Part shown: one piece after another, positions 2,781 through 8,998 of the stretch | How the letters are laid out: every line of letters begins with the position of its first letter | Position numbering within the stretch: the first letter of the stretch is position 1 | Assembly: GCA_020054815.1 (NCBI GenBank) | Contig: JAIHAN010000010.1 | Location: 1 to 37,302, forward strand | Reading direction: 5' to 3' | DNA length: 37,302 nucleotides | DNA from: Peptococcaceae bacterium | GTDB lineage: Bacteria > Bacillota > Peptococcia > DRI-13 | Made by a program: the position numbers and the translations under genes | The notes under the pieces: model-generated | The model's input: only the letters and a program-made list of their open reading frames with translations | Database searches by the model: none | What the model was told of the DNA's origin: nothing

Positions 2781-5087
2781 GTGGACAAGACGGCAAACGC
2801 AATGCAGGAACTGATGGATATGAAGATATGGATGCTGTGGCGATGGGCAACGGATAAAAATGGCAAACCGACGAAGAAACCTTTTGCGGCTGGAGGCGGC
2901 CCAACCGGAACAGATGACAAATGGTCTCATACATGGGTCACATACAATGAGGCAGTAAAAGCAAAGGAGCATAATCCTGTTGCCGCCGGTATCGGTTTTA
3001 AGATACCGAAAGGCTATTACTTCATAGACATCGACCATAAAGCGATTACAGATCCGCTTGTGCAGACGATTTTAGCAAGGCATGACTCTTATGCAGAATA
3101 CTCGGTCAGCGGCACAGGCATACATCAATATGGCAAATGCGACTTTACACAAATCCCTACCTACATTGATAAAAACGGGAATTTAAAACTCGATCGGCAG
3201 TTCTATACGAAAAATCCCCATAACAATTTGGAACTGTATATCGGCGGCATTACAAACCGCTTTGCCGCTTTTACCGGCAATATCATTAATGATAAGCCTC
3301 TGCGCGAATGTACCGCGGCAGTCCTTACGACGCTTGATAAAAATATGCGTCGCAAAGGAAAAGCCAAGTACAGTGCCAAGCGTGACGGCGACCGCGCCGT
3401 TTTCGATATTGTCTGCAACTTACGCAAGCAGAAAAACGGAGAGAAATTCAAGAAGCTGTATGACGATGGAGATATCTCCGGATATGGCTCTCACTCCGAG
3501 GCTGACGCGGCGCTGTGCGCCATGATTGCATTCCGTACCGGGCCAGATCCCGCTGCTATTGATGAAATCTTCCGCAGTTCTGCCCTCTATCGCGAAAAAT
3601 GGGAGCGTGACGATTACAGAGAAGCCACAATCAATGCCGGTATTAATGCCTGTCATGGCACCTTTCATAAATCCAGGATAGAGCATCCATACTTCATCAA
3701 ATTTCATGAACAGACCGGTGAACCCTATGTCAGCGTTCCGCTCCTTGCAAAGTACGTACGCGAGCATCTCCGCTATGTGCTTGTAAGGGATAACGGAAAG
3801 CAGGGCCTTTTGAAATATGTCTACGAAAACGGCTGTTATCGGCTCTATGCCGACAATATGCTGATGGGCATTATCAAGCAGTACATCGCAGATTATGACG
3901 AGGAACTTGTGAGAATGGGCATCGTCAGCGAAACTTTACAGCATATCACCACTGACCTTAATTATGTTAGCCAGGATGAATTGAACGCCGATGAGGATTT
4001 AATCAACTTCAGAAATGGTCTGCTCCGTATCACCGCAGATAACGCCATTCTTGCACCACACTCCCCGGATATCCTCTCCACCATTCAGATTCCGTGCAAC
4101 TGGTCGGGAAGGGAAACGCCTACGCCGGTCTTCGACAGGTATATGCACACCCTCACGGACGGAGACAAGGCCATAGAACACCTGCTCCTTGAGTTTATCG
4201 GTGTATGCATCTCCAACATCAAGGGATGGAGAATGAAAAAAGCACTTTTCCTTGTCGGCGATGGCGACACCGGCAAATCTCAGCTAAAGAGTCTTGTAGA
4301 GCGGTTGCTCGGCAAGGGTAACTTCATAGGAATCGACCTTAAGGAGATTGAAGCGCGTTTCGGCACCGGCGCGATATATGGCACACGCCTTGCCGGTAGC
4401 TCGGATATGAGTTTTTTATCCGTAGATGAGTTGAAAACATTTAAGAAAATTACCGGCGGCGACAGCCTATATGCCGAGTTCAAAGGACAGCAGGCCTTTG
4501 AGTTCACCTACAACGGGCTGCTCTGGTTTTGCATGAACAGACTTCCCAAGTTTGGCGGCGATGATGGCAAATGGGTCTATGACCGCATCATGGTGGTGCG
4601 CTGCCCTAATGTCATTCCAAAGGACAAGCAGGACAAAACACTCCTTGACAAAATGTATGCCGAGCGTGATGGCATCGTCTACAAGGCTGTTATGGCGCTG
4701 CAGACGGTTATTGCAAACGGGTACAGCTTTTCCGAGCCGGACAGTGTAAGCCTTGCAAGAGAGCAATATATGTCAGAGAACAATACTGTGATCTCCTTCT
4801 ATGAGGAATGTATGTGCGAGCGGTCAGAAGGCAAGTTTAATGATTCCGCTACAACGAGCCGCATCTACGATGTTTACAGGGCATGGTGCCATGACAACAA
4901 TAACGGCTTTGCCAAGACAGCCAAAGAGTTCAGAGAGACATTGGCATCCCATCTCGGCTGCACCTTTAAGGAGATGACCGTTCATACCAATAAAGGCACC
5001 TATTATAAAAACCTCACCCTCACTATTGAGGCAAAGGAGCAGTACAAGAAGGCTTATGGTTATGACAGTACGGATTTTCTTTCTTAA
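2781..5087 (+). CDS. Primase-helicase (D5/VapE-like, SF3 helicase) of the mobile element
   Basis: A 768-residue replication protein. Residues about 30-150 look like an archaeo-eukaryotic-type primase-polymerase fold with the metal-binding pair FIDIDHK (about 80-86) and GTGIH. Residues about 210-290 match the D5/primase C-terminal linker (SEADAALCAMIAFRTG...IDEIFRSSALYREKW). The helicase core has Walker A FLVGDGDTGKSQL (GDGDTGKS at 493-500), then a Walker B/sensor stretch and WFCMNRLPKF. It should unwind and prime element DNA, as primase-helicases of P4-type and SaPI-type satellites do. The GTG start at 2781 is placed 5 nt after GGAG. It sits directly upstream of a cluster of GTGACAG repeats that look like its binding sites. 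It is complete, with no frameshift. Confidence 0.85.
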   Translation: MDKTANAMQELMDMKIWMLWRWATDKNGKPTKKPFAAGGGPTGTDDKWSHTWVTYNEAVKAKEHNPVAAGIGFKIPKGYYFIDIDHKAITDPLVQTILARHDSYAEYSVSGTGIHQYGKCDFTQIPTYIDKNGNLKLDRQFYTKNPHNNLELYIGGITNRFAAFTGNIINDKPLRECTAAVLTTLDKNMRRKGKAKYSAKRDGDRAVFDIVCNLRKQKNGEKFKKLYDDGDISGYGSHSEADAALCAMIAFRTGPDPAAIDEIFRSSALYREKWERDDYREATINAGINACHGTFHKSRIEHPYFIKFHEQTGEPYVSVPLLAKYVREHLRYVLVRDNGKQGLLKYVYENGCYRLYADNMLMGIIKQYIADYDEELVRMGIVSETLQHITTDLNYVSQDELNADEDLINFRNGLLRITADNAILAPHSPDILSTIQIPCNWSGRETPTPVFDRYMHTLTDGDKAIEHLLLEFIGVCISNIKGWRMKKALFLVGDGDTGKSQLKSLVERLLGKGNFIGIDLKEIEARFGTGAIYGTRLAGSSDMSFLSVDELKTFKKITGGDSLYAEFKGQQAFEFTYNGLLWFCMNRLPKFGGDDGKWVYDRIMVVRCPNVIPKDKQDKTLLDKMYAERDGIVYKAVMALQTVIANGYSFSEPDSVSLAREQYMSENNTVISFYEECMCERSEGKFNDSATTSRIYDVYRAWCHDNNNGFAKTAKEFRETLASHLGCTFKEMTVHTNKGTYYKNLTLTIEAKEQYKKAYGYDSTDFLS

Positions 5088-5390
5088 AAGTGACAGAAGT
5101 GACAGTCGAGTGACAGTTCTCACAGGCAACTGTCACCGCGAAAACGCCCATATATCAAGGGTTTCCAGCCACAAGTGACAGAAGTGACAGTCTTTCAAAC
5201 TTCTTGGCGGGAAGAATAAAGTTTGGAATTGTACAGAGAACAAGGAAAAGATTATGAGTTGTTGTGAGTATGAAATGAAAAGTTCTGTCACTTTCGTCAC
5301 TGAAGCTTTAAAAGCCTTGCTGCAAGCCGCTTTCCAGCGTGACAGTTCATCAAAACTACTGTCACTGAACCGTCACTTCTGTCACCGGAA
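5088..5390. repeat. Iteron cluster (GTGACAG / CTGTCAC), probable replication origin
   Basis: The 420-nt gap after the primase-helicase gene carries many copies of one 7-mer. GTGACAG is at 5090, 5099, 5110, 5175, 5184 and 5339; the complement CTGTCAC is at 5130, 5285, 5359 and 5379; CGTCAC variants are at 5295 and 5371. A 20-bp block containing two copies 9 bp apart is exactly repeated at 5088-5107 and 5173-5192. The stretch between the two groups (about 5195-5280) is richer in A and T. This arrangement, iterons on both sides of an AT-rich segment next to a primase-helicase gene, is that of satellite and plasmid origins. Function is inferred. The remaining 5391-5508 is leader of the next gene with no other structure seen. 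Confidence 0.6.
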
Positions 5391-5508: not shown

Positions 5509-5814
5509 ATGAATTATCCGCTTATGAAAATGAACAAGGAAGGCACTCTGCTGCGACCGCAGCACACTTATTATTCCGATGAGTATGCCCAAGCCATGTG
5601 CGACCTGCATCTTTCCGATGTTGTCATCGAAGATGATAAAGGAAAGTTAAAATTGCGATACCGCCTCCATGCAAAGCATCCTCATACCATTGAAGGGGCT
5701 ATGGCATATAGCATTCTGTGTCCGAAATGCCACCACCACTTGAAACAGGTAGGAAGATCGCTCAGCTACCATGACCTCGGTCTCTATGCCTGTCCATTCT
5801 GCGATAAGATTTAA
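5509..5814 (+). CDS. Small zinc-ribbon protein upstream of the capsid gene
   Basis: The 101-residue protein starts at ATG 5509 with GAGGAGG 8 nt upstream; an upstream in-frame ATG at 5428 has no such site. The C-terminal third has a CPKC...CPFC pair about 30 residues apart, a clear zinc ribbon. The N-terminal part (TYYSDEYAQAMCDLHLSDVVIEDDKGKLKLRYRLHAKHP) matches nothing I know. It ends 13 nt before the capsid gene, so the two are surely co-transcribed. A role in capsid gene control or assembly is possible, but there is no direct evidence for either. Confidence 0.7.
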   Translation: MNYPLMKMNKEGTLLRPQHTYYSDEYAQAMCDLHLSDVVIEDDKGKLKLRYRLHAKHPHTIEGAMAYSILCPKCHHHLKQVGRSLSYHDLGLYACPFCDKI

Positions 5815-5827
5815 GGAGGGGAACGCC

Positions 5828-6775
5828 ATGAATTATACTGAAGTCAGAGTATATACCGGTCAGCCGGAATACAGCAGGCACTTCTGGAACGCCATGCGCG
5901 GCCAGGAAAGCGATTATTCTGGACTTTCCGAAGGCCGCAGCAGCGAGACGGGTACTTATGTCATGCCAAATGCCACAAATAACAAATATGAAGCAGCCAT
6001 CATAAACGAGAGCCTGTTCCGTAAAATCGGCACAACCTTTAACGTATATGAAGGCAGTTATCACATCCTTGCAAAGGAATACGATGACCTTGCGCAGTTT
6101 GTGCCGGAAGGCGGCGCTATCCCAGTTTTTGACGGACTAAATGATTTCACTCAATACACCGTTGAAAGCCATAAGCTCGCTGCTCTTGTAAAAATGAATT
6201 CGGACTTTGTCCGCGATGCCGCATTCGACATTGAAAGCTACCTTGTAAAGCGCCTTGCCAGGAACTTTGCCAAAGCTGAGGACAACGCCTTTATTAGCGG
6301 TACCGGCGTACAGATGCCGACAGGTATCTTAAACGGTGCAAACGGCGCTGAGGTTGCCTATGCTGTCGATGAAATTACCTATGATGATATAATCAGCTTG
6401 TACTTCTCTGTGAAGCCGGAATACCGCAAAAATGCCGTATGGCTCATGAACGATAAGACAGCCCTTGCCTTGCGTACGTTGAAAGACGAAGCCGGAAACT
6501 ACCTATGGCGCAGCAGCGATGATACCATCCTTGGCAAAAAGGTATTTGTCTCCGAGTTTATGCCGGATATGGAGTCCGGTTCAAAGCCTATTGCTTTCGG
6601 TGATTTCAGCTACTACTGGATCATCTGCAGAAGCCCTGTCAGCGTGAGGGCGCTCTCAGAGAAGTTTGCCCTGCTCGACCAGATAGGTTACCTTGCCTTT
6701 GAGTTTATTGACGGAAAACTTATCCGCCAAGAGGCAGTGAAGGTAATTCAGAAGAATACTGGAACCAACGGTTAA
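5828..6775 (+). CDS. HK97-fold phage major capsid protein
   Basis: The 315-residue protein starts at ATG 5828 (AGGAGGGG just upstream). It follows the HK97 capsid pattern without an N-terminal scaffolding (delta) domain: the N-arm ends in YVMPNATNNKYEAAIINESLFRKIGTT, then a spine helix region with ALVKMNSDFVRDAAFDIESYL and FAKAEDNAFISGTG, then the P-domain and A-domain (WLMNDKTALALRTLKDEAGNYLW, LGKKVFVSEFMPD, PIAFGDFSYYWI) and a C-terminal FEFIDGKLIRQEAVKVI. These segments are the standard signature of phage major capsid proteins. No protease, portal or terminase gene lies nearby. It may package the element's own DNA in small capsids with helper functions, or be a remnant. A strong terminator follows. 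Confidence 0.85.
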   Translation: MNYTEVRVYTGQPEYSRHFWNAMRGQESDYSGLSEGRSSETGTYVMPNATNNKYEAAIINESLFRKIGTTFNVYEGSYHILAKEYDDLAQFVPEGGAIPVFDGLNDFTQYTVESHKLAALVKMNSDFVRDAAFDIESYLVKRLARNFAKAEDNAFISGTGVQMPTGILNGANGAEVAYAVDEITYDDIISLYFSVKPEYRKNAVWLMNDKTALALRTLKDEAGNYLWRSSDDTILGKKVFVSEFMPDMESGSKPIAFGDFSYYWIICRSPVSVRALSEKFALLDQIGYLAFEFIDGKLIRQEAVKVIQKNTGTNG

Positions 6776-7014: not shown

Positions 7015-7176
7015 ATGGCTGAGAAGACCATCTGCGTTACCGAAAAGGTAATCGGTGATACTCTCTACATTATAGAATCAGCAGTCAGCAGCACTGCCAA
7101 AGAAACCGCCTATGACAAGCTGAAACGAATGATACTTAACGGCACAGCAAAGCTTGAATTAAATAAGGCTTCTTAA
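7015..7176 (+). CDS. TnpW-like small transposon protein
   Basis: A 53-residue protein with an excellent ribosome site (AAAGGAGGAG, 6 nt before the ATG). It has the layout of the transposon-encoded TnpW family: a short beta segment (VTEKVIGDTLYIIESAVS) followed by a S.TAKETAYDKLKRMIL helix, where the 'ETxxDKxxRLI' stretch is the family's most recognisable part. TnpW genes are found next to large serine recombinases of Tn4451-like elements, and here the recombinase begins 75 nt downstream. The role of TnpW is not established; a part in excision or regulation is possible. Confidence 0.65.
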   Translation: MAEKTICVTEKVIGDTLYIIESAVSSTAKETAYDKLKRMILNGTAKLELNKAS

Positions 7177-8957
<1,781 letters not shown>

Positions 8958-8998
8958 CCGGGATTGAAAATCCCTAAGACGCACCCTCAAACCGGTCT

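Follow-up and report, generated by a model that had tools for sequence, protein, structure and literature searches.

What does a dense array of short repeats do directly behind the gene of a primase-helicase in a mobile element of a Peptococcaceae bacterium? The window analysed here is one whole contig of 37,302 nucleotides; the element lies in its left part and continues past the contig start. We conclude that the array very probably serves a satellite-like mobile element as its replication origin and is read by the primase-helicase encoded directly upstream. Judged by sequence comparison, the best reading is an initiator-iteron origin of the SaPI/PICI type, that is, a known kind of origin, with what appears to be an unusually legible recognition code.

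The iteron array and its symmetry

The primase-helicase reading frame ends at 5087, and the first iteron therefore starts 3 nt past the stop codon. Within 5090–5385, GTGACAG and its complement CTGTCAC occur in exactly ten copies, in both orientations, and just two more are found elsewhere in the 37.3-kb window. The chance expectation for the whole window is 2.35 (sd 1.53), a count of 12 was reached in 0 of 100 shuffles, and the maximum for any 7-mer in 2000 first-order shuffles of the array region was four copies. Two degenerate iterons, at 5294–5300 (two mismatches) and 5370–5376 (one mismatch), bring the set to 12; CGTCAC variants lie at 5295 and 5371. A 20-bp block, AAGTGACAGAAGTGACAGTC, is identical at 5088–5107 and 5173–5192, and the block GTGACAGAAGTGACAGT has no second occurrence in the host assembly. 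The initial annotation had described at least ten exact copies within 300 nt in both orientations, the CGTCAC variants, the repeated 20-bp block and an AT-richer centre, and our counts bear out each of these. An RNA element was also considered here and rejected: the Rfam match is sub-threshold, lies outside the array and is attributed to chance.

The 12 iterons are mirror-symmetric, exactly to the base, about an axis at 5237.5, with the orientations +++-++ on the left and --+--- on the right and start-to-start distances of 9-11-20-45-9 bp and 9-45-20-11-9 bp, respectively. The left half-site (5090–5190, forward) holds iterons at 5090(+), 5099(+), 5110(+), 5130(-), 5175(+) and 5184(+); the right half-site (5285–5385, reverse) holds those at 5285(-), 5294(-, two mismatches), 5339(+), 5359(-), 5370(-, one mismatch) and 5379(-). 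The mirror arrangement of all 12 sites had been missed by the initial annotation.

Between the half-sites lies the presumed melting region (5191–5284), the most AT-rich part of the array, with 65–70% AT at 5220–5280 compared with 45–60% in the arms. It contains two motifs that are not iterons. AACTTCT, at 5198–5204, is present in 38 of 69 arrays and in 3% of control windows; GTGAGTAT, just ahead of the right inner pair (5285), is present in 12 of 69 arrays and in 0.3% of control windows. A third, CAAGGNTTT, occupies the left 45-bp spacer of many arrays, with its reverse complement in the other 45-bp spacer. These fixed-place motifs could be sites for melting, priming or accessory proteins. For AACTTCT we considered template recognition of the kind found in NrS-1 polymerase, which is reported to recognise 8 nt of its template (PMC7102993).

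Conservation of the scaffold and co-variation with its putative reader

Relatives of the primase-helicase were taken from genome and viral collections, and the 400 bp 3' of each gene were examined. In the first set, 54 of 77 loci have at least five copies of one 7-mer there, compared with 6 of 2795 control windows drawn from the same loci. Conservation of the repeat in related elements had been named earlier as a check, and what we find is an array at the same place beside the same gene, made of repeat letters that often differ. These dialects, labelled by the commonest 7-mer and in part by eye, include GTGACAG, GTAGCAG, GTGGCAG, GTGGTCG, GCGGTCG, GGTGTAG, CTGACAG, GGTACA and others.

What stays constant is the spacing. 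In the relative L006, from the cultured Anaerobium acetethylicum GluBS11, which uses GTAGCAG, sites begin 5, 14, 26, 45, 92, 101, 203, 212, 259, 278, 290 and 299 nt past the stop, in the same orientation order as in the window. Of 61 loci scored against a 12-slot template drawn from the window, with small shifts allowed, 48 filled 8–12 of the 12 slots; an equal number of sites placed at random gave means of about 2–4 and a maximum of 7. The scaffold is kept even in viral relatives with about 25–40% protein identity (L111, L116); the GGTACA array of L116 has sites at 2+, 11+, 22+, 44-, 90+, 98+, 184-, 192-, 238+, 260- and 270-. Arrays are reduced or absent in L015, L023, L048 and L087–L092 (reduced in the last group), and where no array is seen, the gene is mostly truncated or the match distant, with L023 and L048 as exceptions. 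In three further loci (L030, L031, L165) the outer iteron triples are inverted relative to the inner pairs.

Could this be a relic origin, left in an element that has lost the ability to move or replicate? Two of the 12 sites are degenerate in the window, whereas in the relative L005, from the cultured Acetivibrio mesophilus N2K1, every one of the 12 slots holds a site with no more than one mismatch. We nevertheless consider a relic improbable, as the reading frames of both the primase-helicase and the recombinase are open, close relatives at 98–100% primase identity occur in other assemblies, and decay looks like L057, the carrier of a damaged gene. Two of these close relatives (L004 and L003, with primase-helicases 98–100% identical to that of the window) come from assemblies that carry the labels of other Clostridia, pointing to a recent transfer or to samples in common. 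A genome search found no further copy of the element in 45 other genomes of the host's own class, and we therefore regard the element as sporadic. A DNA-level search with the array sequence gave no match in phage records, as would be expected if the dialect changes.

If the array is a functional origin, its reader should change with it. The primase-helicase (2781–5087, forward strand, 768 aa) comprises a PrimPol domain, an NrS-1-type HBD, D5_N, an AAA+ domain and a C-terminal winged helix (about 671–768); Pfam matches are to NrS1-1_pol-like_HBD, D5_N, DUF5906 and Pox_D5. The winged helix is encoded at 4791–5087 (forward strand). An AlphaFold2 model (pLDDT 84) places a helix at 714–724 and a strand pair at 733–736 and 739–742; in this model the helix is the predicted recognition helix and the strands are the predicted wing, with Gly at residue 739. 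From the sequence co-variation described below, we infer that this domain reads the iterons.

Two proteins of one dialect resemble each other more than their overall similarity predicts, and the excess lies mainly in residues 673–768 (t up to 18–19, from pairs that are not independent). The comparison of the window with L006, whose dialects differ, illustrates this: the proteins are 63% identical in 671–768 and 88–97% identical in all other domains. By parsimony, 18 dialect changes are needed on a tree of residues 1–640 and 12 on a tree of residues 671–762, where the minimum is 11. The twelve columns that track dialect best fall in the stretch 686–758. At residue 739 all 12 GTGACAG rows have G and all 23 GTAGCAG rows have N, and loci fetched later follow the same pattern (N in 3/3 GTAGCAG, G in 3/3 GTGACAG). 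Column 739 is also the sole one of 572 that tracks dialect in all four fully independent pairs, although with only four such pairs the sign test gives p 0.125 and formal significance is out of reach. Because N739 also occurs with other dialects (L040, L169 and L176, each time together with Arg 740), there is no one-to-one code between residue and repeat.

Strong co-variation with dialect thus points to the initiator's C-terminal domain as the probable iteron reader, and a change of dialect in step with this domain is the behaviour that a recognition pair should display. The 12-slot scaffold appears clearly to be conserved while the sequence and its putative reader change together, and it is the clarity of this pattern that seems to us the noteworthy part. 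It also bears on whether these are passenger direct or inverted repeats, arisen by chance or for structural reasons and recognised by no protein. Nothing beyond the general frequency of intergenic repeats favours that explanation, and we give it almost no weight, given a copy number that was not reached in shuffles, a scaffold conserved despite changing sequence, and iterons that co-vary with a protein.

Genes and ends of the element

The remaining genes of the element resemble those of a phage satellite. On the left, a methyltransferase-like gene (256–960, reverse) belongs to an arm of exchangeable restriction-modification cargo, which spans 1–960 in the window, 824–6180 in L004 (Eco57I/type IIG-like) and 1714–5851 in L055 (type I-like). 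It is followed by a Cro/C1-type HTH regulator (945–1178, reverse; PF13443, E 2.5e-17), divergent from the replication genes, and by a protein without an assigned role (1318–2277, reverse). A small HTH_17 protein (2576–2752, forward; PF12728, E 1.3e-7), found in 32 of 52 relatives, gives a weak PHROG excisionase match and is a putative excisionase.

Downstream of the array lie a small zinc-ribbon-like protein (5509–5814, forward; Pfam matches weak and below cut-off; 35 of 49 relatives) and a 315-aa homologue of HK97-type major capsid proteins (5828–6775, forward; PF05065, E 1.4e-67), which adjoins the origin in 40 of 45 relatives with enough flank. Because the HK97 model TIGR01554 is matched only from position 85 of 385, the capsid homologue lacks the N-terminal delta (scaffold) domain. 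It might redirect capsid assembly of a helper phage or form a shell of its own. The Ccm protein of SaPIbov5, likewise a capsid homologue, redirects the capsid assembly of the helper and has a delta domain (PMC8569155); a Ccm-like role for the delta-less homologue is therefore only a suggestion.

The position of these two genes raises the question of whether the repeats instead control transcription of the zinc-ribbon and capsid genes, as an operator or regulatory array to which a regulator binds in place of the primase-helicase. The array does lie upstream of them, and the element encodes an HTH regulator. However, iterons are found neither at the regulator nor ahead of the replication genes, the dialect tracks the C-terminal domain of the primase-helicase far more closely than it tracks the other parts of the enzyme, and the array stays beside the primase at loci where the downstream genes differ or none is recognisable (L025, L037, L038, L049). 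We regard an operator as very unlikely and rejected it, the other intergenic regions of the element being free of iterons; an origin read by the primase-helicase remains the preferred explanation.

Further right, a TnpW-family protein (7015–7176, forward; PF14202, E 2.1e-11) precedes a large serine recombinase (7252–8922, forward; PF00239, PF07508, PF13408, PF14287), the presumed enzyme of integration and excision, which is present in 25 of 39 relatives with enough flank. The right end of the element, CCCTCAAA at 8984–8991, was placed by the loss of DNA identity to relatives at about 8990 and by right-end alignment; on its 3' side is what looks like part of an intrinsic terminator, namely its 3' arm with the T-run, and beyond it are chromosomal genes for a PhoH-like protein and transporters. 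The left end is outside the contig. Elements with both ends visible measure 10.7–14.2 kb and sit inside the loops of intrinsic terminators. Rejoining the host flanks yields a hairpin, mostly with a T-run, in seven relatives (L004, L008, L011, L014, L021, L055, L057), and in stability five of these seven hairpins exceed about 99.7% of random 40-mers. Other right flanks, that of the window included, resemble the 3' arm of a terminator. The large serine recombinase possibly targets terminators, and the gene set and terminator-loop insertion sites are compatible with a mobile satellite.

Known origins, a proposed mechanism and possible exchange of reader and origin

How does this origin compare with those already described? 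The enzyme matches TIGR01613 (P4-family primase) above the model cut-off, and to this extent it is a P4-family primase-helicase like the alpha protein. The P4 origin likewise has short iterons read by the C-terminus of alpha, but its ori and crr lie apart, where the window has one dyad immediately behind the gene; we liken the two origins by description. Of the two comparisons drawn in the initial annotation, that with P4 is the weaker; that with SaPI elements, widened to SaPI/PICI, fits.

The best PDB match of the protein is the SaPI5 primase-helicase (7ola/7om0; phmmer E 3.6e-30, Foldseek rank 1), although the two are only about 20% identical. In PICIs the origin lies 3' of the initiator gene and consists of two iteron sets with an AT-rich region between them (PMC6092414), and the C-terminal domain of SaPI/PICI initiators is reported to read the iterons (PMC7581432, PMC6092414). 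The window and its relatives share a fused primase-helicase with the origin directly 3' of its gene, the initiator here being of the primase/D5-helicase type and the sites 6 + 6, mirrored about a centre of 65–70% AT. Twelve sites in exact mirror order may set this origin apart from those of SaPIs. Array conservation, co-variation with the C-terminal domain and the SaPI5 structure match together support the earlier proposal that the adjoining primase-helicase reads this origin in the SaPI manner.

The gene order also recalls PICIs: a divergent HTH regulator (reverse), an HTH_17 xis-like gene (forward), the primase-helicase and the array follow one another in the same order. In contrast, the large serine recombinase is at the right end here, whereas the integrase of Gram-positive PICIs is at the left, beside the master repressor; no integrase was seen in the left arm of L004, a 98%-identical relative. 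Compared with cfPICIs, of the head and packaging module only the delta-less capsid homologue is present, and Pfam searches found no portal, protease or terminase among the ORFs of the window and those of the L004 left arm. Given the different type and position of the integrase, and with searches for a terminase, portal or protease negative, we do not class the element among the PICIs.

Two other systems share parts of this design. SCCmec Cch2 is a D5-type self-loading helicase that binds iterons just 3' of its own gene via its C-terminal domain (PMC7581432); it differs in that only three iterons are reported, the primase is a separate A-family polymerase pair and there is no capsid homologue. 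In Bacillus phage phi105, whose primase is 26% identical, two 9-bp-spaced AGTAACA pairs face each other across an AT-rich centre; phi105 keeps the two inner pairs, but has only six exact sites and a full phage genome.

The anatomy matches that of published origins, and on this basis we infer that one hexamer would be placed by each six-site side and that the centre would melt. In this mechanism the serine recombinase would first excise the element, winged-helix domains would bind the six iterons on each side, two helicase hexamers would load face to face, the AT-rich centre would open and the fused PrimPol domain would prime bidirectional replication. The element would then be a self-replicating excised circle and, if so, an independent replicon. 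Its 6 + 6 mirror layout allows a direct test of the model in which helicases of this class load as two hexamers.

The place of the origin may have a reason of its own. DNA identity between the window and L006 is 77–90% up to about 4800, 57–71% from there to about 6400, and 74–91% thereafter, so that the drop begins at the start of the C-terminal domain. As the coding sequence of this putative DNA-reading domain adjoins its target, a single recombination event can swap both reader and origin, and replicon specificity can therefore change as a cassette; such joint exchange may be why the origin lies right after the reading domain. With about even confidence, we propose a widespread satellite-like family in which a rigid 12-site mirror scaffold is retained while its letters have been rewritten repeatedly together with a few winged-helix residues (wing 734–740, helix 689–705), reader and origin forming an exchangeable cassette; this would be a natural recognition code that may define replicon compatibility groups. 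If this is true, nature supplies in this family dozens of initiator domains, each with its cognate origin and all built on one scaffold, and the rules by which a self-loading helicase recognises its sites could be read from them and tested.

Exchange is also seen at the other end of the gene. L005 differs from the window only in the PrimPol part (2800–3400) and the left arm; among close relatives the PrimPol part has been exchanged alone, L005 being 62–65% identical at 2800–3400 and more than 90% identical in the rest.
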